A DNA stretch of 64,000 nucleotides, taken from positions 2,790,001 through 2,854,000 of the forward strand of contig FNSS01000001.1 in the NCBI GenBank assembly GCA_900104855.1. The letters run 5' to 3'. Under the pieces are notes generated by a model. That model saw only the letters and a list, made by a program, of their open reading frames with translations, was not told the origin of the DNA and did not search any database. A program made the position numbers and the translations under genes. Below are positions 45,002 through 63,963 of this stretch, in pieces. Numbering within the stretch: the first letter of the stretch is position 1; every line of letters starts with the position of its first letter. The stretch is from Rhizobiales bacterium GAS188 (lineage in GTDB: Bacteria > Pseudomonadota > Alphaproteobacteria > Rhizobiales > Beijerinckiaceae).

Positions 45002-46033
45002 CTACGAGGTTTCTTGGCCGTTGTCTTTGGCGAGCGCCAGCACTGCGGTCGCGGTGATCTCGTCGGTGATGAACACGGTCGGGCGCAGCGCCCGCATGGC
45101 GCTCAAGATGGCTTCGGTCTTATGGGCGCCGCCCGAGGTCAGGATGCGTACCGGCGTCGAGGTCAGGGTCTCGATCGGCACCGCCATCACGGTCTCGTTG
45201 ATCGGGTGATCGACGAGATGGCCCTGGCGATCGAAATAATGGCAGAGGAGATCGCCCGCCGCGCCCTTGGCGATGAGGGATTTGCGCTCGCGCTCGGAGA
45301 CGAAGCCGAAGCGGAAGATGGTGTTGTCGGTCGACATGCCGCCGGCGCTGACCACGACGGCGTCGAGCGACCGCGCAAAGTCGAGAATGTCCTTCAAGCC
45401 GCAGCGCTCGACCAGGGCCCGCTTGGTCGCCACGCTGTCGACGAAGGCGGGGGCGGCGATCAGATAACAATCGGCATGGAACAGACGCGAGAACTGCCAG
45501 GCGAATTCGGAGGGGTTGTACTGCCGGGTCTTGGTGATGCCGCCGAGCAGCGACACCACCGACAGATTGCTCACCTGCTTCTCGCTGATGAAAGGCAAGG
45601 AGTTGATCAGCGTCCGGCCCCAGCCGAGCCCGATCTTCATGTCGCTGCGCAACAGCTTGGAGATATAGTCCCCGGTGGCGGCGCCGATCGGCAAGGTCGG
45701 GTCGGCGGCGCTGCTCGAAACCGGCGCGACGATCGCCTCCGTCACCCCAAAAACCCGCTGCAGCTCGAATTCGAGCCGCAAGAGCTCGGCCACATTGCGG
45801 CTGACCGATACGCGCACCTCGTGCAAGGCCCGCGCATCGCTCAACAGTCGCACCACCGTGACGCGCCCGACGCCCAATGTCTCGGCGATGGCGTTCTGCG
45901 TCATCTCCTCGACATAATACATCCAGGCGGCGCGCAATCTCAGTCGCGCGGAGCGGCGCCCGGTGCCGAGATCCGACACATCGAGCTCCGTGTCCGCCCC
46001 GGCCGGCTCCGATCTCGCCTTGCGTCTCGCCAT
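45002..46033 (-). CDS. SorC/DeoR-type sugar-binding transcriptional regulator
   Basis: 343 residues from ATG 46033 with GGAAGG upstream. The HTH is near residues 30-70 (MTQNAIAETLGVGRVTVVRLLSD), followed by the SorC effector domain of the NagB/RpiA sugar-phosphate isomerase fold (GLGWGRTLINSLPF, VVSLLGGITKTRQYNP, ILTSGGAHKTEAI). Such proteins sense phosphorylated sugars. Its gene lies upstream of putA on the same strand, an unusual pairing since alphaproteobacterial putA is normally under an Lrp-type PutR. Confidence 0.86.
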   Translation of the reverse strand: MARRKARSEPAGADTELDVSDLGTGRRSARLRLRAAWMYYVEEMTQNAIAETLGVGRVTVVRLLSDARALHEVRVSVSRNVAELLRLEFELQRVFGVTEAIVAPVSSSAADPTLPIGAATGDYISKLLRSDMKIGLGWGRTLINSLPFISEKQVSNLSVVSLLGGITKTRQYNPSEFAWQFSRLFHADCYLIAAPAFVDSVATKRALVERCGLKDILDFARSLDAVVVSAGGMSTDNTIFRFGFVSERERKSLIAKGAAGDLLCHYFDRQGHLVDHPINETVMAVPIETLTSTPVRILTSGGAHKTEAILSAMRALRPTVFITDEITATAVLALAKDNGQETS

Positions 46034-46221: not shown

Positions 46222-47046
46222 ATGCGGCATTTGACCGACGATATCGTGTTGTCCGTGAAGGACGCGGTGCGCAATCTCCGCTACGCGATCCGCAGCGAGG
46301 CGGAGTCATCGCGGGCCTCCGCCTTCGGTGATGCCGGGGCGAAGCCGGCCTTCGACCGCATGATGCCGCGCGGCAGGCGGCGCAGCCATATGGCGCGCTT
46401 CGTCGACAGCGTCTTCACCGAGGTCGAGAGCGGGGCGCTGGCGCTGGTCTCGCCGGCTCGCGATATCGGGCACAGCATCGTCTTTCCGCGACCGGTCTCG
46501 GCTTATTTCCGGCCCGGCGATGCGGCCCGGGACGAGGCGGCGGAGCGGCTGTTCGCGCGCACCCATTATCACGCCGTGAAGGCGCTGTTGCGCAGCTTCG
46601 GGCTCAACAACATGCTGATCTTCGAGCATGCCATCGGACGGGCCCGCGACGCGGTGCTGACGCGCCAAGCGGATCTCGTCGCAAGCGTCTGCGAACGGCC
46701 AATGCTTGCCGGCGAGGCCGAGCGGGTGCGCCTTTGCGCGGCCTTGGCCTGCGGCCTGGTCGCGGCGCGCCCTATCAAGGAGATCGACCTCTCCATGGCG
46801 GATGCGGCGCTGCCGCGCGGCCTCCTCGCCTCGCCGAACGCCTATTGCTTCGCGGTGATCGGGCTTTCGACCGCGATCGCCTCGACCCATGAGCAGGCCG
46901 AGCTTCCGGCCGGTTCCGAGATCCTGGAGAGCGCCAATGCGGTGGTCGATGTGCGCTTCGAGCGCTTTGCGACCGCGCTCGAGGCCGAGGATCCGGTCGC
47001 GGCCTTGACGGTCGAGTTCGCGGAGGTCCTGCCCTTCCTGCCGTGA
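46222..47046 (+). CDS. Hypothetical protein
   Basis: 274 residues, not recognised. It is helical and charged in its first 75 residues (MPRGRRRSHMARFVD is strongly basic), with no signal peptide or clear membrane helix, and weakly hydrophobic stretches near LRLCAALACGLVAARP and AVIGLSTAIAS. It is divergent from the SorC gene across 188 bases, so could share its promoter region. The open frame has strong third-position GC, supporting real coding. Confidence 0.6.
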   Translation: MRHLTDDIVLSVKDAVRNLRYAIRSEAESSRASAFGDAGAKPAFDRMMPRGRRRSHMARFVDSVFTEVESGALALVSPARDIGHSIVFPRPVSAYFRPGDAARDEAAERLFARTHYHAVKALLRSFGLNNMLIFEHAIGRARDAVLTRQADLVASVCERPMLAGEAERVRLCAALACGLVAARPIKEIDLSMADAALPRGLLASPNAYCFAVIGLSTAIASTHEQAELPAGSEILESANAVVDVRFERFATALEAEDPVAALTVEFAEVLPFLP

Positions 47047-51729: not shown

Positions 51730-52101
51730 ATGCCGGGTTATGACGAACTCGAAGTGCTGCTCTCGCTGGATGGCGCAAGCTTCGAGGCGGCCGATGGGTA
51801 TGTGGTCGAATTCATGGCGCAGCGGACGGATGTCACGCCGGAACGCCCGCACGGCATCAGCTACGCGCTGGTGTTTCGCCCCAAGGATGGTGAGCCTTAA
51901 GTGCGCTTCGACAATGCCCACGCAGTCGAGCGGCCGGGCGGACGATTCGTCAAGGGCTCGCCCGCTTACGACCATTGGCATCGGACTGGGAACGATACGG
52001 GTCGCCCCTATGCATTCACGACGGCGGCAAAGTTGCTCGAGGACTTTTGGCGAGAAGTGAAACGCGTGACGACGGAAAGGCGAATCCCCAATGACCTATA
52101 A
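51730..52101 (+). pseudogene. DUF6516/TumE-type toxin gene interrupted by an in-frame TAA
   Basis: Codons 1-56 (MPGYDELEVLLSLDGASF ... LVFRPKDGEP) end at TAA 51898-51900. The same frame continues immediately (GTG 51901) as VRFDNAHAVERPGGRFVKG ... RPYAFTTAAKLLEDFWREVKRV. Intact family members run straight through this point: a variable N-terminus, then 'FDNAH', 'DHWHR' and 'Y.F..A..LLEDFW.EV'. The stop therefore splits one toxin, most simply by a nonsense mutation. A coupled two-ORF arrangement (TAAGTG) or readthrough is possible. The antitoxin gene overlaps the end. Confidence 0.72.
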
Positions 52102-52516
52102 GATAGGCACCGTCGGCGAATTCATGCGGTGGACGAAGCGTGTCGTCGCCAATCCCGCCACTGCGGCGGACACGCCCAAGCGTTGGTTCGACAGCAAGGC
52201 AAGCGCCGAGGCCGCCCTGGCGGAGACCTCGCCCGAGGCTATGGTGAAGCTCCTATCTCCGGAGAACCTGGAGATGCTGAAGATCATTGGCACAGTGCGG
52301 CTCAATTCCATGCGTGAGCTCGCCTCACTCGTTCGTCGCAAGGAATCGAATCTCTCCCGCACATTGAAGAAGCTCGAACGCGCCGGAATCGTGGGCTTCG
52401 AAAGCGGCCCTGGCCGGACGCTGACGCCACGGTTGCTGGCGCGTCGGGTGACGCTGGATCTCGACCTCGTCGGCACTAGCGGCAAGGTGTCCGTGCAACG
52501 GCCTGTGGTTCGATAG
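52091..52516 (+). CDS. HTH antitoxin (TumA-like)
   Basis: 141 residues. A C-terminal winged HTH is evident: LEMLKIIGTVRLNSMRELAS, RKESNLSRTLKKLERAGIVGF. This arrangement, a DUF6516 toxin overlapping a downstream MarR-like HTH protein by a few bases, is the TumE-TumA layout. The protein probably binds both toxin and promoter. Here it appears intact while the toxin is broken, so it may persist only as a regulator or an anti-addiction remnant. Confidence 0.75.
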   Translation: MTYKIGTVGEFMRWTKRVVANPATAADTPKRWFDSKASAEAALAETSPEAMVKLLSPENLEMLKIIGTVRLNSMRELASLVRRKESNLSRTLKKLERAGIVGFESGPGRTLTPRLLARRVTLDLDLVGTSGKVSVQRPVVR

Positions 52517-52578: not shown

Positions 52579-54561
52579 TCAGATTTCCGTCACGCATTTT
52601 TTGGCGCGCGGGATCGATGAGGGGCTCATGCTGAGCTCAGTGACGCCCATGCGGATGAAGGTCGCGATCAGATCGGGACGTGCCGCCGCCTCGCCGCAGA
52701 CGCCGACCCAGATGCCGGCCTTGCGGGCGGCGCGGCAGACGAGATCGACGGCCCGCAGCACCGCCGGATGATCGGCGCGGTTGAGATGCGCGACGAGCGG
52801 ATTGAGGCGATCGGCCGCCATCACATATTGGGCAAGGTCATTGGTGCCGATCGAGAAGAAGGCGACTTCCTTGGCGAAATCGGCCGCCAAAAGCGCGGCG
52901 GCCGGCGTCTCGATCATGATGCCGAGCTCAGGCTCGCCGAACGCAACGCCGCGTTCCGCAAGCTCGGCACGGCATTGCGTGAGGAGTTCCTTGGTGCGCT
53001 GCACCTCCTCGATATCGGCCACCATGGGCAGCATGATCTTGATGTTGCCGCTCAGCGACGCGCGCAGCAGCGCCTTGAGCTGCGGCTTGAAGATGTCGGG
53101 GCGATCGAGGCACATGCGCACCCCGCGCCAGCCGAGGAAGGGATTATGTTCCGCCGGGAAGTCGATGCCCGGCACCGGCTTGTCGCCACCGACGTCGAGG
53201 GTGCGCACGATGACCGGATGCGGCGCGAAGGCCGAAGCGAGCTTTGCGTAGACGGCTTCCTGCTCGTCTTCCGAAGGCGGCGATTTGCCTTCCATGAACA
53301 GGAGCTCGGTGCGGAACAGGCCGACCCCCATGGCGCCGGCGCCCAGCGCCTGATCGATCTCGTTCAACGAGCCGAGATTGGCCGCAATCTCGATCAATCG
53401 TCCGTCGCGCGTTCGCGGCTCGGCGCTCCGGAAGGCGTCGAGCGCAATACGCTCGCGCTGCTCCTCGGCGATGCGGGCCTCGAGGCGCGCTGCGTCAGCC
53501 TCATCCGGATCGAGGAAGACTTCGCCCGTGGCGCCGTCGAGACCGATCCTGGCGACGCCGCGCAGCCGGGCCACATCCCCGCCATAGCCGAGCACCGCCG
53601 GGATGCCGTAAGTGCGCGCCAGGATCGCCACATGCGAGGTGGCGGCGCCTGTCACGCACACGATGCCGGCGACGCGTTGCAGCGGCGCCTTGGCGAGATC
53701 GATGGCGCTGAGCTCCTCGGCCACGATGACGGCGCCTTGCGGCAGCTCGGCAAGCGTCACCGGCGCGCGACCCGACAGCGCCAATGTGATGGCACGCGCC
53801 AGACCCCGCACATCCTCGGCGCGGGCCCGCAGATAGGCATCGTCGATGCGCCCGAAGCGCGCCGCAAGCGCCGCGCCGACATCGAGCGTTGCCGAGATCG
53901 CATCGAGGCCGCCGCCGATGCGCGCCTCGATGGCGCCGGCGAATTCCGCGTCGCGCGCGAGCTCCGCCAGCGCCGCGATGATGGCGTCCTGCTCGTTGGC
54001 CGGCCGCGGCGCGGTGGAAGCGTCGCGCGAAGCCGCGATGACACTGTTTAAGGCGTCGCGGAAGCGCGCGATCTCGTCCACGGTTTCGTTCTCGGCGAGC
54101 CGGCAGGACTCGGGTTGCACAGGCTCCGCGAAAAACGCGAAGGCGGGCCCAAGGGCCGTGCCTTCGCTCGCCGGCACACCCCTCCCGGTCGGCGAAGCAT
54201 CACCCTGTGGGGCAGACGCAGCGAATCCCAGACCGGAGATGCTGTTAGCAGCGGCCGCAGCTCCGAGCGGGATATGGCCGGCCTCCGGGGTCTCGATGAA
54301 GGCAACAAGCCTCTCGACCGCCTCTTGCGCGTCGGCGCCTTCGGCCCGAATGATGATCTCGTCGGCCTCCTTGACGCCGAGCAACATCAGCTTCACCGAG
54401 CTCTTGGCATTGGCGGCGCGGCCGTCGCGCAGGATTTCGAGGTCGCAAGCGAAGCTCTTGGCGAGCTTGACGAACTCGGTCGCCGGCCGCGCATGCAAGC
54501 CTTCCCGCACCCGAACCCAGGCCTTGCGCTGAATCCATGCTTTGCGCTCGAGCGCCATCAT
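52579..54561 (-). CDS. HPr-Enzyme I fusion (PEP-protein phosphotransferase)
   Basis: 660 residues. Residues 1-95 are an HPr domain with the phospho-His23 in REGLHARPATEFVKLA; the usual Ser46 region reads AKSSVKLMLLGV. Residues from about 125 onward are Enzyme I: phospho-His310 in TGAATSHVAILART, the PEP-binding barrel with GLFRTELLFM and GIMIETPAAAL, and the C-terminal Cys in GVCGEAAARPDLI. It passes phosphate from PEP to SrlB in the same operon, so this island carries its own general PTS proteins. ATG 54561 or 54558. Confidence 0.9.
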   Translation of the reverse strand: MMALERKAWIQRKAWVRVREGLHARPATEFVKLAKSFACDLEILRDGRAANAKSSVKLMLLGVKEADEIIIRAEGADAQEAVERLVAFIETPEAGHIPLGAAAAANSISGLGFAASAPQGDASPTGRGVPASEGTALGPAFAFFAEPVQPESCRLAENETVDEIARFRDALNSVIAASRDASTAPRPANEQDAIIAALAELARDAEFAGAIEARIGGGLDAISATLDVGAALAARFGRIDDAYLRARAEDVRGLARAITLALSGRAPVTLAELPQGAVIVAEELSAIDLAKAPLQRVAGIVCVTGAATSHVAILARTYGIPAVLGYGGDVARLRGVARIGLDGATGEVFLDPDEADAARLEARIAEEQRERIALDAFRSAEPRTRDGRLIEIAANLGSLNEIDQALGAGAMGVGLFRTELLFMEGKSPPSEDEQEAVYAKLASAFAPHPVIVRTLDVGGDKPVPGIDFPAEHNPFLGWRGVRMCLDRPDIFKPQLKALLRASLSGNIKIMLPMVADIEEVQRTKELLTQCRAELAERGVAFGEPELGIMIETPAAALLAADFAKEVAFFSIGTNDLAQYVMAADRLNPLVAHLNRADHPAVLRAVDLVCRAARKAGIWVGVCGEAAARPDLIATFIRMGVTELSMSPSSIPRAKKCVTEI

Positions 54562-54617
54562 GTCCCTTCCTTCATTGGAGCGCCGGTCTCGACGCGCTGT
54601 CTCGCGGTAACGCGTCG

Positions 54618-54652
54618 TGACCGTGCTTCGGTCCGGTCATCCACGCCTTCCT
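54618..54652. repeat. Short repeat related to the hairpin at 36786
   Basis: TGACCG and CGGTCCGGTCA flank a short loop, followed by TCCACGCCTTCCT, the same tail as at 36809-36820. It lies between srlB and the HPr-EI gene. Confidence 0.5.
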
Positions 54653-54741
54653 ACATTCCGTTAGAGGTGGCTGCGTTTGCACCACCTGCTTGCAAAAGGC
54701 ATGGATGGCAGAGCCGAACCCGGCCCTGACGCGCTGGGGCC

Positions 54742-55122
54742 TCAGCCCGAGATGGAGATCTCGGCGCCGACCGCGATGGCAGCGGCCAGCGCTTCGCGAT
54801 CGACCGGGGCGACATAGAGCTCGCCCGGCCGCCCGGTTTCGATGGAGCCGTTGAAGTTGATCACCACATGGCCGAGATCTGCGACCTTCTTCCAGGCCGT
54901 CTCGCCGATCGCGGTGAGCCTGGTCGACACGGAGCCGATCCTGAGCTCGGAGCCGACCGTGGGAGCCGCCACGGTCGGCCCGCTCTTGACCTGATGCAGG
55001 ACGGAGATCTCGGCGAGCTCCGGCGGCGCACCCGCAGCAAACAGGATGAGCATGCCGCCGCCGATGAGATCGCGCGCCTCCGGCCCGATCTCGGTAATGG
55101 TTGTCGCGTAGAAGACCGTCAC
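54742..55122 (-). CDS. srlB: PTS glucitol/sorbitol-type IIA component
   Basis: 126 residues in the EIIA-Gut family. The phospho-His is in LAEISVLHQVKSG and the family end GHVVINFNGSIETGRPGELYV is present. It accepts phosphate from the HPr-EI fusion and passes it to the SrlE IIB cysteine. It is the third PTS gene of the minus-strand operon, 13 bases after srlE. Confidence 0.9.
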   Translation of the reverse strand: MTVFYATTITEIGPEARDLIGGGMLILFAAGAPPELAEISVLHQVKSGPTVAAPTVGSELRIGSVSTRLTAIGETAWKKVADLGHVVINFNGSIETGRPGELYVAPVDREALAAAIAVGAEISISG

Positions 55123-55135
55123 GTCTTGCTCTCTT

Positions 55136-56131
55136 TCACATCAGGAAGCTTGCGAGCCAGGCGATCAGGACCGAGACCGGCCCCATGACCTGGCGGCTCA
55201 CCAGCACCGCCGGAACGCCGATCTCGATGGTCTTGGGTTTCGCCTCGCCGAGCGCCAGGCCGACGGGCACGAAATCGCAGCCGACCTGTGTGTTGTAGGC
55301 AAACAGCGCCGGCAGAGCCATATGCGGCGCGATGGTGCCGAGCGCGATCTGCGGGCCGATGATGGCGACGCCGATCACCTGGGCGATCACGGCGCCAGGT
55401 CCGAGGATCGGCGACAGGAAGGGCAGGCCGCAAATCACCGAGATGATGACGAGCCCAACGATGTTGTTGGCGAGCGGCCCCATCGGGGCGGCCAGCAGGT
55501 CGCCGATCCCCGTATAGAGGATGAGGCCGATCAGCATGGTCACGAAGGCCATGAAGGGCAGGACGTTGCGGATGATCTGATCGATGGTCCGCCGACCGGC
55601 ATTGAAGAACACGTTGACGAAACGGCCCATGATGCGGCCGATGCCGGCGATGATGCCGATGAGCCCGCCTTGCCCGTCGGGGGGCGGGGCGGCTTGGCTC
55701 GCTGCGGCCACACTCGCGCCCGCGGCGCTCGCGACCACGGGAGCAGCGCTGCCATCGGCGAGCTTGATGCTGTTCGAGGTCACGCCCGACACATAGATGT
55801 CCTCGGTGATGAACTGGGCGAGGGGCCCCGATTGGCCGACCGGGGTGAGGTTGATGGTGGGGATGCGCTTGCGCGGATAGACCCCGCAGCGCGCCGTGCC
55901 GCCGCAATCGATGACCACGCAGGCGATCTCGCCCTCGACCGGAGGCGCCTTGAAGCCGTCGACCGCGGTGCCCCCCGTCATCTCGGCGATCCTGAGCGCC
56001 ACCGGCGGGATGCCGCCGCCCGTCACCGCCACGATCTTGTCGCGCTGTGCATCGGGCGTGATCACCAGAGGCCCGCCCCAGCCGCCAGGACCCGCATCGA
56101 TGCGCACCGCCTTGAATTGCTTCTCAGCCAT
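55136..56131 (-). CDS. srlE: PTS glucitol/sorbitol-type IIBC component
   Basis: 331 residues from ATG 56131 (AAGG eight bases upstream); an alternative ATG at 56161 overlaps the srlA stop. The N-terminal IIB domain has VVIDCGGTARCGVYPRKRIP with the phospho-Cys, then SGPLAQFITEDIYVSGV; a Pro/Ala linker follows; the C-terminal half is membrane-embedded (IIGPQIALGTIAPHMALP, GCDFVPVGLALGEAKP). It phosphorylates the incoming polyol. Homology starts just after ATG 56131. Confidence 0.9.
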   Translation of the reverse strand: MAEKQFKAVRIDAGPGGWGGPLVITPDAQRDKIVAVTGGGIPPVALRIAEMTGGTAVDGFKAPPVEGEIACVVIDCGGTARCGVYPRKRIPTINLTPVGQSGPLAQFITEDIYVSGVTSNSIKLADGSAAPVVASAAGASVAAASQAAPPPDGQGGLIGIIAGIGRIMGRFVNVFFNAGRRTIDQIIRNVLPFMAFVTMLIGLILYTGIGDLLAAPMGPLANNIVGLVIISVICGLPFLSPILGPGAVIAQVIGVAIIGPQIALGTIAPHMALPALFAYNTQVGCDFVPVGLALGEAKPKTIEIGVPAVLVSRQVMGPVSVLIAWLASFLM

Positions 56132-56157
56132 GATGGATGCCTTCCCTGCCCCGCCGC

Positions 56158-56967
56158 TCATAGTTCCACACCCTGGCGGCGGGCCATGAAGGCGGTGATG
56201 CGCTCGGTGACGATGCCCTTGAGCAGGATCACCACGAGGCCGACGATGAAGTACCAGATAGCGACGGTGACATGGTAATTGGCCGGCACCTTGCCGGCCT
56301 TCTCGAGCTCGAGCAGCGCCACCAGCACGCCGCCCCAGACGAAATATTCGCCGGGATTGGCGTGCGGGAAGAGGCCGAGGATCGGATGCACGAAGGAGAC
56401 GGCCGAATCATAGAAGGCCGGCTTGTGCTTCTCCTCCAGGAAGGTGCCGAAGGTGTAGGCCATCGGATTGGTCAAGAAGAACACGGCGATCAGCGGCAAC
56501 ACGGTGTAGCGCGTCAGCGCCACGCGGCCGGCCGCCCGGGCAAAGCCGTGCACGCGCTCCTCGCCGATCAGCCCGGTGACGGCGTAGAAAGCGGTCATCA
56601 GCACGACCAGCGTCGGGATGATGCCGGTGACGAAGCCCACGAACACCTGGCCGCCCTTCTGGAACACGCCGATGAAATGCGTGCCGATCAAGGTCAGCCA
56701 GCCGAGATGCTGCTCCTGGCTCACCTGCTTGACGCGCTCGGCATAGCTGGCAGCGTCGCCTGCCGGCGGCGTGTTCTGGGCGAGCACGATGAGGTTCGCG
56801 CCATGCTCGGCGAGTTGCGGCATCGCGCCATGGCCGATCGATTGCGCCCAAAGCCCGCCTTGCACGAAGGACGTGATCGCGTGGACCGGCGCGTCGGCAT
56901 GCAGCGCCGCAAGCGAGAATGCCTGCGTCACGAACTCCGTCGATTGCGCCATCATCATCATCACCAT
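56158..56967 (-). CDS. srlA: PTS glucitol/sorbitol-type IIC component with long N-terminal extension
   Basis: 269 residues. From residue 88 it matches SrlA: GTHFIGVFQKGGQVFVGFVTG, FFLTNPMAYTFGTFLEEKHKPAFY, GLFPHANPGEYFVWGG. E. coli SrlA is about 187 residues and starts there. The extra 88 residues (QSTEFVTQAFSLAALHADAP...) are soluble in character and of unknown role. It forms the translocation channel with SrlE. The stop overlaps the first possible srlE start by four bases. Confidence 0.88.
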   Translation of the reverse strand: MVMMMMAQSTEFVTQAFSLAALHADAPVHAITSFVQGGLWAQSIGHGAMPQLAEHGANLIVLAQNTPPAGDAASYAERVKQVSQEQHLGWLTLIGTHFIGVFQKGGQVFVGFVTGIIPTLVVLMTAFYAVTGLIGEERVHGFARAAGRVALTRYTVLPLIAVFFLTNPMAYTFGTFLEEKHKPAFYDSAVSFVHPILGLFPHANPGEYFVWGGVLVALLELEKAGKVPANYHVTVAIWYFIVGLVVILLKGIVTERITAFMARRQGVEL

Positions 56968-57051
56968 GTCGCGTCCCCTTCCTCGCTGCGCCGGCTCTCG
57001 AATGGCCGACGTCTTGCCTCGAACTTTGCCTCGAACTTTGCCTCGGACCCG

Positions 57052-57483
57052 CTACACGGCGGCCGCGTGCGGCGCCGCGATTTCCGTCGCCTGGCGTGCG
57101 GCGCGAGCCTTATCGATCTGCGCGATCGCCTGAGCCAGCGCCGTCTCGCGTCCCTTGCCGTTGGCACCGAAAACCGCGCCGGAGCGCAACTCGTCGAGAG
57201 CACGGCCCTCGAATTCGCCGAGCGGCTTGAACTTGGCCAGCACGCTGCGCCCTTCCATCACGAGAAGCCGGCGCACCCGGGCATCGGGCCCGAGCACCAG
57301 CAGCAGGATGACGCCCTTGCCGAAGGCGGCGCGCGCATTGCCGGCGCCAAGATAGCCGTCCGACCATTGGCGGGTGATGGCGCCCATCACCTCGCGATAG
57401 TGGCGCATCTGCACGAAGGTGCCGAGCGCCTGGAGGCCCCAGGCGATCACCAAGACGATCAGCGCTATCTGCCAGAGTTGCAC
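57052..57483 (-). CDS. gutM: GutM-like glucitol operon activator
   Basis: 143 residues from GTG 57483; a longer ATG start at 57564 gives 170. One N-terminal membrane helix (LWQIALIVLVIAWGLQALG) precedes YREVMGAITRQWSDGYLGAGN and GRSVLAKFKPL, the GutM pattern. E. coli GutM is 119 residues and modulates gut operon expression. It is the first gene of the minus-strand PTS operon. No SrlR/GutR repressor gene lies in the window. The shorter start better matches family length. Confidence 0.8.
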   Translation of the reverse strand: MQLWQIALIVLVIAWGLQALGTFVQMRHYREVMGAITRQWSDGYLGAGNARAAFGKGVILLLVLGPDARVRRLLVMEGRSVLAKFKPLGEFEGRALDELRSGAVFGANGKGRETALAQAIAQIDKARAARQATEIAAPHAAAV

Positions 57484-57560
57484 GCCTAGATCCCCGCCGG
57501 CTCGCGGCCGGTTGCGCTCCCATCCCTGCCCCGCGAGCTTCCGCCCCTGGAAGCGTGAAG

Positions 57561-57583
57561 GCATTTGGAGCTTGAGGGCAAAT
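57561..57583. promoter_or_regulatory. Candidate operator, copy 1 (PTS operon side)
   Basis: GCATTTGGAGCT followed by CAAAT after eight more bases, just upstream of gutM in an AT-rich patch. The same GCATTTGGA-CT core occurs at 58409 upstream of the oxidoreductase gene, so one regulator may bind both. Confidence 0.45.
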
Positions 57584-57730
57584 TAGAATATTTGTCTTTT
57601 CGAATGTCAATGTGTTCTTTTCCGCGCATCACGGAAACCGGCCTGGAATCTCTCCTGGAGTTTTGCCGGGTTGACCTTGCGCGCGCCGCGACGAATGGTT
57701 GTCCCGGCGGCGAATTCGGGATCGGTGGAT

Positions 57731-58369
57731 ATGGAGCTCGGCCTCACGGATGAACTGACGGGCGTGGCGGATCTGCGCCATCAGGTCCGGCATCTGCGTT
57801 GGTTCAAGAGCTCGTTCCGGCGCGATGCGGCGCTGATCGCGGAGCATCACGGCGTCGTCTTGAAGATCGACGACCGGCGCCTCACCGAGGTCTTCCTCAA
57901 CTGGATCGAAGCCTTCAACCGGCAGAAATCCTATGCGGCGCTCGACCGGCGCGACTTCACCTTGTTCGCGGCAGGGCTGCTGCTGCGCGAGTTCCTGAGG
58001 GTCCGTCCGGTGACGGAAGCTGACCCGCGACCGACAGGCGCCGCGGTGGGTGACGCCTGGTCGAGCTCGATCGTGCGCTTCTGGCCGGAAGGCTTCCTCT
58101 ACACCAATTACTGCCTGAGCGTGCTCAGCGCCGTGGTGCAGCAGGAATTCGGCGAGACGCTCAGCCTCGCCAAATGCGCCGACGATCTGCGCCTCTGGTG
58201 GTCCTACCGGGAGAATGTGCGCGAGGATCCCTCCATGGCCATTGCCTTCTTCGACAAATTCGTGGGCGAGGAGCCGAATTGGCGGGTTCCCGACTCGGCC
58301 GAAAGCCGCGCCGCCATGCGGCGCGCCACCAAGAAGCTGTTTGCCGGACAGGGGCTTCTGGGGCACTGA
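57731..58369 (+). CDS. Unknown protein between the divergent arms of the polyol island
   Basis: 212 residues, family not recognised. It starts MELGLTDELTGVADLRHQVR, with RRLTEVFLNWIEAFNRQKSY in the first third, and FWPEGFLYTNYCLSVLSAVV and LRLWWSYRENVREDPSMAIAFF later. Soluble, no signal peptide, no obvious HTH. GGTGG precedes ATG 57731. It lies between gutM (divergent) and the oxidoreductase operon, so a role in the same pathway or its control is plausible only from position. Confidence 0.65.
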   Translation: MELGLTDELTGVADLRHQVRHLRWFKSSFRRDAALIAEHHGVVLKIDDRRLTEVFLNWIEAFNRQKSYAALDRRDFTLFAAGLLLREFLRVRPVTEADPRPTGAAVGDAWSSSIVRFWPEGFLYTNYCLSVLSAVVQQEFGETLSLAKCADDLRLWWSYRENVREDPSMAIAFFDKFVGEEPNWRVPDSAESRAAMRRATKKLFAGQGLLGH

Positions 58370-58408
58370 CGGCGCCTAGGCGCTTGTGACGAGTGCTTGC
58401 ACATTCCA

Positions 58409-58427
58409 GCATTTGGAACTACAAATG
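58409..58427. promoter_or_regulatory. Candidate operator, copy 2 (oxidoreductase operon side)
   Basis: CATTTG-GAACTA-CAAATG (58410-58427) is a perfect dyad, 60 bases upstream of the oxidoreductase ATG, sharing GCATTTGGARCT with the copy near gutM. It sits in a locally AT-rich stretch. Confidence 0.55.
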
Positions 58428-58486
58428 TACATGAGGCGCGCCTATAGGTCAGCGCTCTTGGCGGCGGCATCCGGGACCCTCGGGGA

Positions 58487-59911
58487 ATGATGACCAATCA
58501 GATCGTCGGCAACGGCAATGCAGGAATAGGCTTGGCCGGAAATGGCTCGACTGGAATGGGTCTGGCCAAAATGGGTTTGGCGGCTGAGATCGCTGCTTAT
58601 GCCGAGCATCACGGGCCGGTCACCATCGGCCTGGCCGGGGCAGGCCAGATGGGCACCGACATCGTGGTCGAGGTGGCGCTGATGCAAGGCGTGCGCATCG
58701 GCGCGATCTCGGAGATCCACCCGCAAGCAGCGATCGACGCGGCATTGATGGCAGGGCATGCGGCGGGCGACGTGGTGCGGACCGAGACCGCTTCGGCCAT
58801 CGACGGCGCCATCGAAGCCGGCAAGGTCGCGGTCACGGAGAGCTACGAGGCGCTATGCGCTGCAGGTCACATCGATGTGGTGATCGATGCGACCGGCAAC
58901 CCCAATATCGGCACCCTGGTCGCGCTCGAGGCGATGCGGCACGGCAAGCATGTGGTGATGCTCAATGTCGAGGCCGACATCACCATCGGCCGCTTCCTCA
59001 AGGAGGAGGCGAGGAAGGCCGGCGTCGTCTATACGGGAGCTGCGGGCGACGAGCCGGCGGCGACGCTCGAGCTCATCGGCTTCGCCCAGAGCCTCGGCTT
59101 CGAGATCGTGGCGGCCGGCAAGGGCAAGAACAATCCCCTGAAATTCGACGCCATGCCGGAGGAGTACGAGGCGGAGGCGCGCGCCCGCAACATGAATGCG
59201 CGCATGCTGGTCGAGTTCGTCGACGGCTCGAAGACGATGATCGAGATGGTCGCGGTCGCCAACGCCACCGGCCTCGTGCCCGACGTGCCGGGCATGCATG
59301 GCCCCTCGGCGACGCGCGAAGAGCTCGCCCAGGTCCTGGCCACCAAGCAGGATGGCGGCATCCTGACGCGCTCCGGCGTCGTCGATTACTCTATCGGCAA
59401 GGGCGTGGCACCCGGCGTGTTCTGCATCGTCAAGCCGCGCCATGAGCGCGTCAACGAGCGCATGAGCGATCTCAAGGTCGGGCCCGGCCCCTGCTACGCG
59501 CTGCTGCGCCCCTATCACCTGACGAGCCTCGAGACGCCGCTCTCGGCGGTGCGCGCCGTCATGCACAAACGTCCGGACATGCAGCCGCTCGATCACCCGG
59601 TCGCCGAATGCGTGGCGGTCGCGAAGCGCGACCTCGGCCCCGGCCAGAAACTCGGCAAGATCGGCGAGCGCGATTATCGCGGCTTCGCCATGCGCTGGAT
59701 CGAGGCGCGCGAGGCGGGCGCCTTGCCGCTCGGCCTCGCCGAGGCCGCCAAGGTCGTGAAGCCGGTCAAGGCCGGCGAGAAGCTCACTTACGAGAATTGC
59801 GTGCCCGATGACGGTTTCGTGGTGACGCAGACCCGCCGCCGCCTCGACCAGAGCGATGCGCGCTTTCTTCCGGCGCGAGAGCAGGGTGCCCGCGCGGCGC
59901 AGAGGAGCTGA
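58487..59911 (+). CDS. Homoserine-dehydrogenase-like NAD(P)-dependent oxidoreductase with SAF domain (DRL-type candidate)
   Basis: 474 residues. After a Gly-rich N-terminal 30 residues comes a Rossmann domain ([22 protein letters not shown]; quoted as [14 protein letters not shown]), a central catalytic region ([40 protein letters not shown]) and a C-terminal SAF domain ([34 protein letters not shown]). This architecture is that of DXP-reductoisomerase-like (DRL) enzymes, shown in Brucella abortus to interconvert 1-deoxyxylulose 5-phosphate and 2-C-methylerythritol 4-phosphate. The SAF domain often brings wrong 'FlgA' labels. It heads an operon with an acetoin-dehydrogenase-like complex. Assignment to DRL is inference; starts at 58556 or 58571 would drop the Gly-rich leader. 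Confidence 0.72.
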
Positions 59912-59913
59912 CC

Positions 59914-60957
59914 ATGGCGCTCGACACGATCGAGTCCCCCCGCGTCCGGGTCTCGCCCGACAACTCAGCTGTCGAGAACAGCCCGGCGATCTACCGGCGC
60001 CTGTCCGCCGAGGCATTGCGCGAGGCGTTGCGCAAGATGCATCTCATCCGCCGCTTCGAGGAAGGCGCCGAGGATGCCTATATGCGCGGCCTCGTGCATG
60101 GGACGATGCATTTGTCGATCGGCCAGGAGGCGAGCGCGGTCGGCATCTGCCTGCCGCTCACGGATGACGACTACATCACCTCGACGCATCGCGGCCACGG
60201 CCATTGCATCGCCAAGGGCGCCGAGGTGTCGCGCATGTTCGCGGAATTCTTCGGCAAAGAGGACGGCTATTGCCGCGGCCGCGGCGGCTCGATGCATATT
60301 GCCGATGTGTCGAAGGGCAATATCGGCGCGAACGGCATCGTGGGCGGCGGCATCCCGATCGCGGTCGGCGTTGGCTTGTCGATGAAGAAGCAGAAGCGGC
60401 AATCGGTGGTCGTCTCCTTCTTCGGCGACGGCGCCAACAATGAGGGCGCCTTCCACGAGGCTTTGAACATCGCCTCGATCTGGAAATTGCCGGTGATCTT
60501 CGTGTGCGAGAACAATGGCTACGGCATGTCGACCTCGACCGAGCGCTCGACCGCCGTCCGGGATGTGGCGGAACGCGCGCAGGCCTATGCGATGCCGGGC
60601 GTGATCGTCGACGGCAACCGCTTCGCCGAGGTGGCGCAAGCTTCCTTCGATGCGGTCGAGCGCGCAAGGCGCGGCGAAGGCCCGACCCTGATCGAGAGCA
60701 AGACCTATCGCATCCGCGGCCATTCGCGCTCGGACCGCAACCGCTACCGCACCAAGGAGGAGATCGAGGCCTGGCAGGCGCGCGACCCGATCCACGCCTT
60801 CGAGACGGAGCTCGCCGAACTCGGCCTCGTTTCGGCCGGCGAGATCGAGGCGATCCGCGCCGATGTCGAGCGCGAGATCGCCGACGGCATCGAATTCGCC
60901 AAGGCGAGCCCCTCGCCCTCGGTCGAGGAGCTGACGCGCTATGTCTATACGGATTGA
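59914..60957 (+). CDS. 2-oxoacid/acetoin-type dehydrogenase E1 alpha subunit
   Basis: 347 residues. The ThDP motif is [20 protein letters not shown] ending in [28 protein letters not shown] and [20 protein letters not shown] are the E1-alpha motifs. The phosphorylation-loop region [12 protein letters not shown] is present. It starts two bases after the oxidoreductase stop, so is translationally coupled. In acetoin dehydrogenase this subunit cleaves an acyloin next to the carbonyl; in pyruvate dehydrogenase it decarboxylates. The alpha/beta-hydrolase-type E2 downstream favours the acetoin branch. Confidence 0.87.
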
Positions 60958-60969
60958 GGCGGCACGCCG

Positions 60970-61989
60970 ATGACCGCCAAAAATGCCCCCAAAAATGCCC
61001 CCATTCGCGAATTGAGCTATGCCCAGGCGATCCAGGAGGCGATGGCGATCGCCATGGAGGCCGATGAGCGCGTCTTCCTGATGGGCGAGGATATCGGCGT
61101 CTATGGCGGTGCCTTCCAGGTGACGGGCGACCTCGTGCACCGCTTCGGCAGCGACCGGGTGATGGACACGCCGATCTCCGAGCTCGGCGCCGCCGGCGTC
61201 GCGGTCGGCGCGGCGCTGACCGGGATGCGCCCGATCTTCGAGTTCCAATTCTCCGATTTCGCCACGCTCGCTATGGAGCAGATCGTCAACCAGGCCGCCA
61301 AGATCCGTTTCATGCTGGGCGGCGAGGTGTCGGTGCCGCTGGTGATGCGCTTCCCCTCGGGCTCGGGCACGGGCGCGGCCGCGCAGCACAGCCAGAGCCT
61401 CGAAGCCTGGTTCGCCCATGTGCCGGGCCTCAAGGTGCTGCAGCCTTCGACGCCCCATGACGCCAAGGGCTGCCTGCTCGCGGCCATCGCCGATCCCGAT
61501 CCCGTGATGATCTTCGAGCATAAGCTCCTCTACAAGATGAAGGGCGAAGTGCCGGAAGGCCATTACACGGTGCCGATCGGCAAGGCGGAGATACGGCGCG
61601 CCGGGCGCGACGTGACCATCGTCGCGACCTCGATCATGGTGCATCGCTCGCTCGAGGCCGCCGAAGAGCTGGCGCAGGAGGGCATCGAGGCCGAGGTCAT
61701 CGATCTGCGCTCGCTGCGCCCGATCGACACCGCGACGCTGGTCGAGAGCGTCAAGCGCACCCATCGCCTGGTCTGCGTCTATGAGGGCGTCAAGACGCTC
61801 GGCATCGGTGCCGAGGTGAGCGCCGCCATCGCCGAGAGCGAGGCCTTCGACTTCCTCGACGCGCCGATCCTGCGGCTTGGCGGCGCCGAATGCCCCATCC
61901 CCTATAATCCGGAGCTCGAGAAGGCCGCCGTGCCGCAGACGCCGGTGATCACCGCTGCCGTGCGCCGCCTCGTCTGCGGCAAGGTCTGA
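60970..61989 (+). CDS. 2-oxoacid/acetoin-type dehydrogenase E1 beta subunit
   Basis: 339 residues. [20 protein letters not shown], the catalytic-site segment [38 protein letters not shown] and the C-terminal transketolase domain with [15 protein letters not shown] are typical of E1 beta. It forms the heterotetramer with the preceding subunit. A 12-base gap separates the genes. The N-terminus carries a small KNAPKNAP duplication. Confidence 0.88.
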
Positions 61990-61994
61990 GCGCT

Positions 61995-63305
61995 ATGCCG
62001 ACCGAGGTGATTCTGCCGCGTGTCGACATGGACATGGCGGAGGGGCGGATTTCGCGCTGGTATGTCGAGAACGGCGCGAGCGTCGCCAAAGGCCAGCCGA
62101 TCTTCGAGATCGAAACCGACAAGGCCGCGATGGAGGTCGAGGCGCCGGCTTCCGGCATCATCCGCGATCTCGCCACCACGCTCGACACGCCGCTACCGGT
62201 CGGCAGCACGGTGGCCTGGATCGATGCGGAGGGCGAGGCCGCAAGGACAGCGCCCAGCCTCGACTCGCAAACCGCAACGAAGCCGGCCGCGCCGGCCCGC
62301 GCACCCGCGACCAAGCCGAAAGACGGGGCTGGAATTTCGCATGGACCTCACGCGGATACGGTTGCGGGTGAGGCCTGGCCGCGCGCCACACCGATGGCGC
62401 GCCGCTTGGCGCGCGACAACGGCATCGACCTTGCGAGCGTCGCGGGCTCGGGGCCGAAAGGACGCGTGCAAGCAGCCGACATCACGGCCGCGGCGCCAAG
62501 CCGAGCCGAGACCAAGTCTACGCCGGCCGCCGCGCCGGCGTCAGGCGGCGAGCTGCACCGTCAATGGCTGCGCCAGGGCGAAGGCACGCCGCTGGTGCTG
62601 CTGCACGGCTTCGGCGGCGATCTCAATGCCTGGCGCCTGTTCCTGGCTACGGTCCGGCCGCAATGCCCGGTACTCGGCATCGACCTGCCAGGCCATGGTG
62701 GCTCCGCTGCTCGGCCCATGATCGGCTTCGACGATACGGTTTCCGCGGTCGCCGAGACGCTGCGGGCCGAGAAGCTCGATGCCGTGCATCTCGCCGGGCA
62801 TTCGCTCGGCGGCGCGGTGGCGACGGCGCTCGCCGGACGCGAAGGCAGCGCGGCGCGCTCGCTCTTCCTCGTCGCGCCTGCGGGGCTCGGACCGGACATC
62901 AACGGCGCCTTCATCTCGGGCTTCCTGCGGGCGCGTAGTGCCGCGAGCCTCGCGCCCTGGATGCGGCTGCTGGCCTCCGATCCCACGGCGCTCGGATCGG
63001 CCTTCGTCGAGGCGACCTTGCGCCAACGCCAAGCCGAGTCGGCGCAGGAAGGGCTTGAGCAGATCTCGGCCCGCCTGTTTCCCGACGGCACACAGGCCTT
63101 CGATGTGCGGCCGATTCTCGAGCACCTCGCCATTCCGGTGAAACTCGTGTTCGGCTCGGATGACCGCATCATCCCGGCCCGCCACTCGCAGGGGCTACCG
63201 GGCCAGGTGGCCGTGCATCTCTTCGCCGGCATCGGCCATATGCCGCATTTCGAAGCGCGCGATCAGGTCGCGCGGCTGGCCCGTGAGCTGATGCGATCGG
63301 CATGA
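61995..63305 (+). CDS. Acetoin-dehydrogenase-type E2: lipoyl domain, PSBD and alpha/beta hydrolase
   Basis: 436 residues. The lipoyl domain (1-78) has Lys43 in EIETDKAAMEVEA; a Pro/Ala linker follows; the peripheral subunit-binding domain is near 132-163 (PMARRLARDNGIDLASVAGS). Instead of the catalytic acetyltransferase trimer domain, residues 185-436 are an alpha/beta hydrolase with LLHGFGGD, Ser270 in AGHSLGGAV, Asp near 389 (FGSDDRIIPA) and His415 (GIGHMPH). This composition is known for AcoC of acetoin systems. No E3 gene follows, so a shared lipoamide dehydrogenase must serve. Confidence 0.88.
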   Translation: MPTEVILPRVDMDMAEGRISRWYVENGASVAKGQPIFEIETDKAAMEVEAPASGIIRDLATTLDTPLPVGSTVAWIDAEGEAARTAPSLDSQTATKPAAPARAPATKPKDGAGISHGPHADTVAGEAWPRATPMARRLARDNGIDLASVAGSGPKGRVQAADITAAAPSRAETKSTPAAAPASGGELHRQWLRQGEGTPLVLLHGFGGDLNAWRLFLATVRPQCPVLGIDLPGHGGSAARPMIGFDDTVSAVAETLRAEKLDAVHLAGHSLGGAVATALAGREGSAARSLFLVAPAGLGPDINGAFISGFLRARSAASLAPWMRLLASDPTALGSAFVEATLRQRQAESAQEGLEQISARLFPDGTQAFDVRPILEHLAIPVKLVFGSDDRIIPARHSQGLPGQVAVHLFAGIGHMPHFEARDQVARLARELMRSA

Positions 63306-63469: not shown

Positions 63470-63766
63470 ATGCAGATCGACTTCGACTGGGACCCGGCGA
63501 AGGCGAAACGCAATGCTGCAAAGCATCGGGCGACCTTCGAGGAGGCCATGACGGTGTTTCGCGACCCGCACGCGCTCTCCATGTTAGACACGGACCACAG
63601 TATCGGGGAGGAGCGCTGGATCACCTTAGGGGCAACAACCAGTGGAAATCTTCTCTTGGTTGTGCACAGTTGGCGGGAGACCGCGGCCGGTCGGGTCGGG
63701 GTGCGGATCATATCGGCGAGACGGCCGACGAAAAGCGAGGCGCGCCAATATCGCGAGGGCTCATGA
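63470..63766 (+). CDS. brnT: BrnT family toxin
   Basis: 98 residues. FDWDPAKAKRNAAKHRATFEEA with later VFRDPHAL, ERWITLGAT and VRIISARRPTKSEARQYRE is the complete BrnT/DUF497 RNase-like toxin of type II systems. Its stop overlaps the antitoxin ATG (ATGA). The 164 bases upstream hold no gene; the pair lies just outside the polyol island. Confidence 0.9.
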   Translation: MQIDFDWDPAKAKRNAAKHRATFEEAMTVFRDPHALSMLDTDHSIGEERWITLGATTSGNLLLVVHSWRETAAGRVGVRIISARRPTKSEARQYREGS

Positions 63767-63963
63767 AGGACCAGTATGATTTTTCAAAAGCAGAGCGTGG
63801 CCGGTTCCACCGCCCAGGTGCGACGCTGGTGCCGCCGGTTCACCTCGATCCCGAGGTGCTGGCCTTCCTCGCGGCACGCGCCGAGGCACGCGGTGTGCCG
63901 CTGAGCGAGCTTGTCAACACCTTGCTGAAGAAAGACATTGAGCTGATCGAGGCAGCCGAATAA
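63763..63963 (+). CDS. brnA: BrnA family antitoxin
   Basis: 66 residues from ATG 63763. The C-terminus PVHLDPEVLAFLAARAEARG then VPLSELVNTLLKKDIEL is a ribbon-helix-helix DNA-binding domain; the N-terminal DFSKAERGRFHRPG is the toxin-facing segment. It neutralises BrnT and autorepresses. The larger upstream open frame in the same phase is not coding. Confidence 0.88.
   Translation: MKDQYDFSKAERGRFHRPGATLVPPVHLDPEVLAFLAARAEARGVPLSELVNTLLKKDIELIEAAE

Follow-up and report, generated by a model that had tools for sequence, protein, structure and literature searches.

A predicted catabolic route for methylerythritol encoded by a phosphotransferase system, DXR-II and E1/E2 gene cluster in Rhizobiales

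A candidate pathway from methylerythritol to acetyl-CoA

A 64,000-nucleotide stretch of the Rhizobiales bacterium GAS188 genome (contig FNSS01000001.1, positions 2,790,001 to 2,854,000; hereafter the window) carries a gene cluster in which a glucitol-type phosphotransferase system (PTS) with its own HPr-Enzyme I (HPr-EI) fusion stands divergent from genes for a DXR-II (DRL) oxidoreductase and for the E1 alpha, E1 beta and E2 subunits of a thiamine diphosphate (ThDP)-dependent complex. The cluster is predicted to serve the degradation of a branched polyol, most likely 2-C-methyl-D-erythritol or a close 2-methyltetrol. In the proposed pathway the PTS would import methylerythritol and phosphorylate it to 2-C-methylerythritol 4-phosphate (MEP), DRL would run backwards and convert MEP to 1-deoxyxylulose 5-phosphate (DXP), and E1/E2, presumably with a lipoamide dehydrogenase (E3) encoded elsewhere, would cleave DXP, an acyloin, in a retro-carboligation; oxidation of its acetyl half on lipoate would yield acetyl-CoA, and D-glyceraldehyde 3-phosphate would be freed. 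Irreversible DXP cleavage would pull the unfavourable oxidation of MEP, and a SorC-type regulator probably senses the phosphorylated substrate.

A first-pass annotation of the window had put forward such a reversed MEP pathway, and the proposal survived those of its refutation tests that could be computed; with the DXR-II residues, a dxr search and linkage in its favour, it stands as a well-supported prediction. Judged from gene content and conserved residues, the whole chain from methylerythritol through MEP and DXP to acetyl-CoA and glyceraldehyde 3-phosphate is rather likely to operate, the DXP-cleaving step being its least secure part; confidence in the three single steps (the DRL reaction, the PTS substrate and the E1 substrate) is not independent. 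The direction of DRL, the E1 substrate, the products, the participation of E3 and the regulation are what we infer. The same annotation knew of no described pathway of this kind, and none for methylerythritol utilisation was found in searches of the open-licence PMC literature; a 2026 review (PMC13001223) mentions Dxr-II, and no word beginning 'catabol' occurs in its available passages.

Identity of the oxidoreductase

The window DRL aligns with Brucella DRL (3upl/3upy) over 427 ungapped columns, reaching residue 431 of 446, and shares the catalytic and diagnostic residues of the DXR-II clade. The available parts of PMC3847144 set DXR-II apart from the DLO1 and DLO2 groups, of which four tested members failed complementation, assign K191, K193 and T229 to the fosmidomycin site and E174, F178, R320 and Y322 to the dimer cavity, and give G121, H250 and V351 as sites of divergence between DXR-II and DLO. 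With positions transferred from the Brucella DRL alignment (offset 21, Brucella numbering), all ten residues are present in the window DRL and again in the second DRL of the genome, and nine of them do not vary across 27 E1-linked DRLs, 26 of which have V351 (104 of 106 DRL rows used). The active-site comparison with Brucella DRL upholds the earlier assignment to DRL. The SAF domain also claimed for this protein received no Pfam score at E <= 0.001, although the Brucella DRL alignment covers nearly the full length. The enzyme very probably acts on the MEP/DXP pair. The described role of DXR-II is MEP synthesis, whereas here the gene stands in a PTS-E1/E2 cluster, in a genome with a second DRL beside ispD.

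In a DRL tree of 63 rows (29 Mesorhizobium and 12 Ancylobacter near-copies, loci L001 and L002 and sequences shorter than 300 aa being omitted), the 27 E1-linked DRLs fall into two deep alphaproteobacterial lineages, and the linkage label changes six times, at least four of these changes being forced by well-supported branches, against a mean of 20.6 for shuffled labels. The E1 linkage is therefore either old or has been gained and lost repeatedly, and is not confined to one DRL lineage.

Linkage across genomes and plasmids

Homologues were sought in 397 genomes of the order under E-value limits fixed ahead of the results (DRL, E <= 1e-60; E1 alpha, E <= 1e-110; PTS IIB, E <= 1e-60). DRL gave 117 matches in 97 genomes, 94 of them at least 49% identical (DXR-II; 77 genomes) and 23 DLO-like at 34-46%. 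E1 alpha of the clade described below was located in 33 genomes, at 34 places altogether, of which 28 lie within 10 kb of DXR-II, and DXR-II is present in 32 of the 33 E1 genomes against 77 of 397 overall. None of the 34 E1 genes lies near any of the 23 DLO-like matches, and on this ground, together with the DXR-II residues kept in the window protein, a DLO-type dehydrogenase was rejected. PTS IIB was found in 20 of the 397 genomes (weakest match 2.8e-153), 19 of which carry this E1 and 18 DXR-II, the exceptions to co-occurrence being G162 (58% complete) and G104. Fisher tests that ignore kinship gave p = 9e-25 for E1 and DRL, 1e-22 for PTS and E1, and 4e-12 for PTS and DRL; counted by genus, DRL (all matches) is present in 46, E1 in 18 and the PTS in 12 of 142.

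Plasmids display the same association. This E1 is encoded in 33 records of the plasmid collection, many of them belonging to rhizobia or to other bacteria associated with soil or plants. DRL directly adjoins it in 32, counted over the 45 DRL records listed out of 46, the remaining E1 record being NZ_CP129381. In a named survey of genome contigs, from which the best 80 of 180 confirmed DRL loci were kept, 11 have E1 alpha after DRL or close to it, and a twelfth contig (L031) breaks off within E1 alpha; the PTS is present in five of these E1-positive loci as well, and GutM in L031. The grouping of PTS, DRL and E1/E2 into one system, first suggested from the window alone, is thus extended to many relatives, in which the three are tied together. 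Because the arrangement recurs across many genera and in two phyla, its assembly by chance is very unlikely.

Two DRL copies and isoprenoid synthesis

Searches of the whole genome (9.09 Mb, 3 contigs) found no dxr-I, one dxs and two DRLs, the second being 62% identical to the window DRL and lying about 0.7 kb from ispD, with ispH and hopanoid genes in the same region (the labels hopanoid, AcoX, SurE, MBL and the genome's own pyruvate dehydrogenase, here and below, are readings of translations or annotations). We infer that the ispD-adjacent DRL is the natural biosynthetic enzyme, which leaves the window DRL free for another task. The genome also has a second ispD (G000:C1:6042684-6043352) and a second ispH (L090 7031-7999), the latter about 8 kb right of the cluster.

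Evidence that the clustered kind of DRL handles MEP and DXP comes from six relatives (G085, G188, G264, G322, G336 and G372; 98-100% complete) in which the sole DRL found (E <= 1e-60) lies within 10 kb of E1, and in which IspG is present and no DXR-I or HMG-CoA synthase was found. With no other DXP reductoisomerase found in these genomes, the clustered DRL there must make MEP, unless an unknown enzyme substitutes for it, and DRLs of this type would accordingly be genuine DXP/MEP enzymes. DXR-I was sought in 80 genomes, namely the 77 with a DRL at least 49% identical together with G104, G162 and G370 (the 19 genomes with only DLO-like matches lay outside this search), and exceeded the cut-off in 11. 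Among the 33 E1 genomes, 7 have DXR-I, 16 have two DRLs, 10 have one DRL without DXR-I and G162 has neither; G248 combines DXR-I with two DRLs, and both DRL copies of G183 are E1-linked. The biosynthetic and the proposed catabolic role are not always split between copies.

A role of E1 as a replacement for DXP synthase was rejected, as 8 of the 11 genomes tested, the window genome among them, have dxs. G372 (L121) carries the PTS, DRL, E1/E2, IspD and IspG, with no dxs found at E <= 1e-40; E1 may replace DXP synthase in this organism, or the organism may depend on imported methylerythritol, if its 260-contig assembly is complete. G104 (L102) has the PTS, GutM, orfX (a gene described below), SorC, IspD and IspG. 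Whole-genome search found neither dxs nor dxr-I in it, and of DRL just a remnant of 59 residues next to the PTS; thiC, thiG, thiE, thiD and ispH were not seen in the 2.22 Mb read (about 85% of some 2.6 Mb). G104 might be a natural methylerythritol auxotroph, an idea that fits the lack of these thi genes in the part read but not the presence of pdxJ, whose product needs DXP. Loss of dxs is seen in 3 of 20 PTS carriers against 14 of 377 other genomes, a weak difference (p = 0.047), with one of these three assemblies 58% complete.

The E1/E2 complex

Acetoin dehydrogenase (AcoABC) cleaves a methyl acyloin to acetyl-CoA and an aldehyde, and the first-pass annotation had called the window complex acetoin-dehydrogenase-like. 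This holds for E2, which has the alpha/beta-hydrolase architecture common to both and scores 399.7 against the NCBIfam acetoin-dehydrogenase E2 model NF011457 (cut-off 307), but not for E1. In a tree of 41 rows (L001, L088, L089 and L109 omitted; a second tree used a chosen subset of 32), E1 alpha of the DRL-linked loci falls into a single clade (27 rows; support 91/91 and 96% of 200 bootstrap trees), which also includes the E1 of six genomes with DRL elsewhere or not found. Four acetoin-type E1 form a separate clade (99/91), the references being L122, L124 and L126, chosen by E2 annotation or neighbours, and L125, an archaeal E1 beside an AcoX-like kinase. With a Priestia sequence added, the alphaproteobacterial clade is supported at 98/98, and the E1 of Priestia and of a Clostridioides difficile plasmid stand beside it on long branches with weaker support (88/72).

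The DRL-linked clade also has invariant residues of its own. Compared over 33 rows with three acetoin references and five other sequences, its E1 alpha loop has R275 and N276 in all 33 and R277 in 31, and its E1 beta has K189 and R250 in all 33, while the three acetoin references lack these basic residues and have AQT or PGL in place of the RNR loop; the Priestia loop reads AKK. In human pyruvate dehydrogenase (PDH) the corresponding loop bears a regulatory serine where the active site opens, and a function as phosphate clamp is plausible for the loop of the DRL clade. PDH E1 and DXP synthase have the ThDP fold in common with this E1, and according to the available parts of PMC3424233 purified E. 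coli PDH makes 1-deoxyxylulose from pyruvate and glyceraldehyde, and DXP is produced as a result of mutations in this PDH, Q408R and L633R among them, so that PDH-type E1 chemistry on this carbon skeleton has precedent. The window complex differs from both in its clade-specific residues and in its setting, a genome with a separate dxs and other E1 genes, one of which is read as its PDH. DXP is the probable substrate of E1.

The E2 component varies among relatives, the one Rhizobium E2 scanned (L094) having the usual 2-oxoacid dehydrogenase acyltransferase domain instead of the alpha/beta hydrolase; both types fit an acyl-CoA product. The C. difficile plasmid locus (L123) encodes a SorC regulator, E1 alpha, E1 beta, E2, E3 and a major facilitator superfamily (MFS) transporter, its E1 alpha being 59% identical to that of Priestia, and this complex may act on a sugar instead of acetoin.

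The PTS and other transport variants

Uptake of methylerythritol through a PTS would yield MEP, as the chemistry of these systems implies, and the sorbitol PTS of Salmonella is reportedly a methylerythritol transporter, going by the title of Testa et al. 2004 as it appears in reference lists. Methylerythritol is likely to be the substrate of the window PTS. IIC, IIB, IIA and GutM all pass the Pfam cut-offs of the glucitol family (4/4) and are common to this cluster and the enterobacterial srl/gut system; the IIA score is below the NCBIfam cut-offs. The HPr-EI gene adjoins the PTS in relatives as well.

A glucitol PTS accompanies the DRL-E1-E2 core in Terrarubrum, Pseudoroseomonas, Rhizobium and Nitratireductor plasmids. 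Sinorhizobium meliloti Rm41 and an Agrobacterium plasmid have a sugar ATP-binding cassette (ABC) transporter and a PfkB-type kinase, plus E3 and lipA, and Aminobacter has the same core with a different ABC transporter. Both the PTS and the kinase variants would deliver a phosphorylated polyol, which fits the MEP hypothesis. Some clusters are accompanied by a second, galactitol-type PTS. In Alsobacter and Microvirga loci the ABC transporter is accompanied by SurE-like and MBL-fold genes, and in L009, L012, L013 and L019 genes for an ABC transporter, a SurE-like phosphatase and an MBL-fold hydrolase lie near the DRL core; loci of this type might import a phosphorylated or cyclic-phosphate form. 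Reduced loci occur in Mesorhizobium (L023, the one examined), with DRL, an FGGY kinase, a SorC regulator and an ABC transporter and without E1, and in Ancylobacter (L010), with SorC and DRL only.

Outside the Alphaproteobacteria, a plasmid of Priestia aryabhattai (Bacillota) encodes E1 alpha, E1 beta, E2, E3, DRL, an FGGY kinase, an MFS transporter and two SorC regulators, with GutM, three PTS genes and HPr on the divergent side. Genes for fructose-6-phosphate aldolase lie near DRL in Ligilactobacillus (L099 14913-17572, with transketolase) and in G210 (L107, about 9670; 36% identity), and this aldolase, with or without transketolase, might cleave DXP by another route. A run of thiamine synthesis genes stands to the right of the Rhizobium cluster (L094 18816-24043); ThDP is the cofactor of E1, and thiazole synthase uses DXP.

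Weighing the alternatives

Several observations weigh against a catabolic pathway through DXP. The oxidation of MEP is thermodynamically uphill; among NCBIfam equivalogs PDH comes closest to E1 alpha, its cut-off of 393.9 being just missed by the window protein (380.4) and just exceeded by the Priestia protein (396.7); and R250 of E1 beta also occurs in the genome's presumed PDH and is therefore no marker for DXP. In 68 of the best 80 DRL loci no such E1 lies in the stretch compared (up to 10 kb on each side), and Listeria, Ligilactobacillus and Enterococcus have DRL and PTS without E1/E2 in the stretches fetched. The DRL of the 10 E1 genomes with one DRL and no DXR-I must at least also serve synthesis, and G104 retains the PTS without E1 or an intact DRL.

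Part of this is accommodated by methylerythritol salvage, in which the PTS would feed MEP to IspD, DRL would make DXP for vitamins B1 and B6, and E1/E2 would be an ordinary PDH. The PDH scores, the clusters of the Listeria type and the two genomes G372 and G104, which have the PTS, IspD and IspG and no dxs found (and, in G104, no dxr-I or intact DRL), all favour salvage. It is nevertheless unlikely, as the E1 clade occurs almost exclusively with DRL in the genomes and plasmid records compared above, the genome has other E1 genes including the one read as PDH, dxs is present in most genomes tested, the window genome among them, and G104 retains pdxJ, an enzyme dependent on DXP. Less likely still is a different branched polyol, for instance 2-C-methylthreitol or a tetritol with a hydroxymethyl branch, processed by the same chemistry to acetyl-CoA or another acyl-CoA: the PTS family takes several polyols, galactitol-type second PTSs accompany some clusters and several transporter types serve the same enzymes, but the DXR-II residues are conserved, and where the clustered DRL is the only DXR found, as in the six genomes above, its natural pair is MEP and DXP.

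Two readings treat the neighbouring genes as unrelated, and both are highly improbable. A true acetoin dehydrogenase adjoining DRL by chance would explain the acetoin-type hydrolase of E2 and its match to the acetoin E2 model, but this candidate was rejected because E1 belongs to a different clade. Moreover, AcoABC has a sigma-54 AcoR regulator where this cluster has SorC, and neither AcoR nor the AcoX-like kinase, both of which accompany L122 and L126, was found among the ten cluster genes that the Pfam scan took in (more distant neighbours were read as translations); the Rhizobium member has a normal acyltransferase E2, and linkage to DRL recurs in two phyla. An ordinary sorbitol operon agrees with the glucitol-family matches of the PTS components and GutM. 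It was rejected because the cluster differs from srl/gut in having no sorbitol-6-phosphate dehydrogenase (no short-chain dehydrogenase is among the ten genes) and in including HPr-EI, DRL and E1/E2, to which its PTS is tied across the 397 genomes, IIB occurring almost only with this E1 (19/20) and DRL (18/20). Degradation of methylerythritol through DXP is the reading that best accounts for the cluster.

Gene content and neighbourhood of the cluster

All genes named in the first-pass annotation for 52579-63305 were found at those coordinates, each matching its family in Pfam or NCBIfam profiles (Table 1). Comparison with relatives shows the cluster to be wider than first noted, adding orfX, the SorC-type regulator and the gene at 46222-47046.

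Table 1. Genes of the cluster, with positions in the window
Gene product	Position	Strand	Supporting match
HPr-Enzyme I fusion (phosphoenolpyruvate:protein phosphotransferase feeding the PTS)	52579..54561	-	Pfam PTS-HPr, PEP-utilisers_N, PEP-utilizers, PEP-utilizers_C above cut-offs
PTS IIA, glucitol type (srlB)	54742..55122	-	Pfam PTSIIA_gutA 94.4 bits, cut-off 25
PTS IIB, glucitol type (srlE)	55136..56161	-	NCBIfam PTSGlctlSorbSrlE 439.7 bits, cut-off 400
PTS IIC, glucitol type (srlA)	56158..56967	-	NCBIfam PTSGlctlSorbSrlA 184.8 bits, cut-off 150
GutM-like protein	57052..57564	-	Pfam GutM 72.8 bits, cut-off 25
orfX, conserved protein, family unassigned	57695..58369	+	no Pfam/NCBIfam match
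DXR-II (DRL) oxidoreductase	58487..59911	+	481 bits to Brucella DRL; Pfam DRL_cat 222 bits, cut-off 27
ThDP-dependent E1 alpha	59914..60957	+	Pfam E1_dh 297 bits
ThDP-dependent E1 beta	60970..61989	+	Pfam Transket_pyr, Transketolase_C
E2 with lipoyl, E3-binding and alpha/beta-hydrolase domains	61995..63305	+	Pfam Biotin_lipoyl, E3_binding, Abhydrolase_6; NCBIfam NF011457
SorC/DeoR-type sugar-binding transcriptional regulator	45002..45922	-	Pfam Sugar-bind 188 bits
Second conserved protein, family unassigned	46222..47046	+	no Pfam/NCBIfam match

The DRL, E1 alpha, E1 beta and E2 genes are separated by gaps of 2, 12 and 5 bases, and the gene caller's shorter start for GutM would place it at 57483. 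Scans between gutM and DRL detected no promoter or terminator, and the inverted-repeat scan found one 81% palindrome, inside orfX. Homologues of orfX occur in 22 fetched loci, including L001, the window's own copy; the others are L009, L013, L018, L019, L031, L069, L092-L097, L102-L104, L113, L114, L116 and L119-L121, and orfX accompanies both PTS-type and ABC-kinase-type clusters.

The SorC regulator lies 6.6 kb left of the PTS block and shares 66% identity with the SorC regulator of the cluster in Terrarubrum, and a SorC homologue shares its locus with DRL in L007-L016, L091 and L120. Together with the gene at 46222-47046, whose homologues occur in nine other loci, all of which hold a glucitol PTS, it stands 5.5-6.6 kb to the left of the PTS, and further genes intervene. 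The metagenome-assembled genome loci L007, L008 and L016 lack the PTS, and the first match met to the left of their DRL is the SorC gene; the outer neighbours of L007 (GST and PutA, and on the right side ispH, thrB and rnhA, as read) correspond to those found in the window and in the flank to its right. Short flanking genes at 51740-52516 and 63470-63963 resemble toxin-antitoxin pairs, an impression gained from translations.

Implications for DXR-II and methylerythritol

If the prediction is true, this would be the first catabolic route for methylerythritol, as far as the searches of open-licence PMC literature show, and a recognisable clade of ThDP enzymes would gain a new activity, DXP dehydrogenase (CoA-acetylating). 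Plants as well as most bacteria make the carbon skeleton of methylerythritol. Plants reportedly divert an intermediate of the MEP pathway into hemiterpene glycosides, as the title of one paper in the reference list of PMC7581940 has it, and 2-methyltetrols form in air from isoprene; with cluster plasmids found in soil and plant-associated bacteria, substrate and niche would be at hand. The genes of the cluster allow direct tests in laboratory strains.

The available parts of PMC3847144 ask why DXR-II exists beside DXR-I and report that Finegoldia and Anaerococcus have DXR-II with no other MEP or mevalonate pathway enzyme found, and the pathway would address both points. That DXR-II in general serves, and perhaps first served, methylerythritol catabolism, with uptake by a PTS or by a kinase and ABC transporter and with a DXP dehydrogenase (CoA-acetylating) complex, falls just short of being probable. 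On this wider hypothesis DXR-II would have been recruited from or into isoprenoid synthesis, and would for this reason have been kept by bacteria that have DXR-I or lack the MEP pathway.

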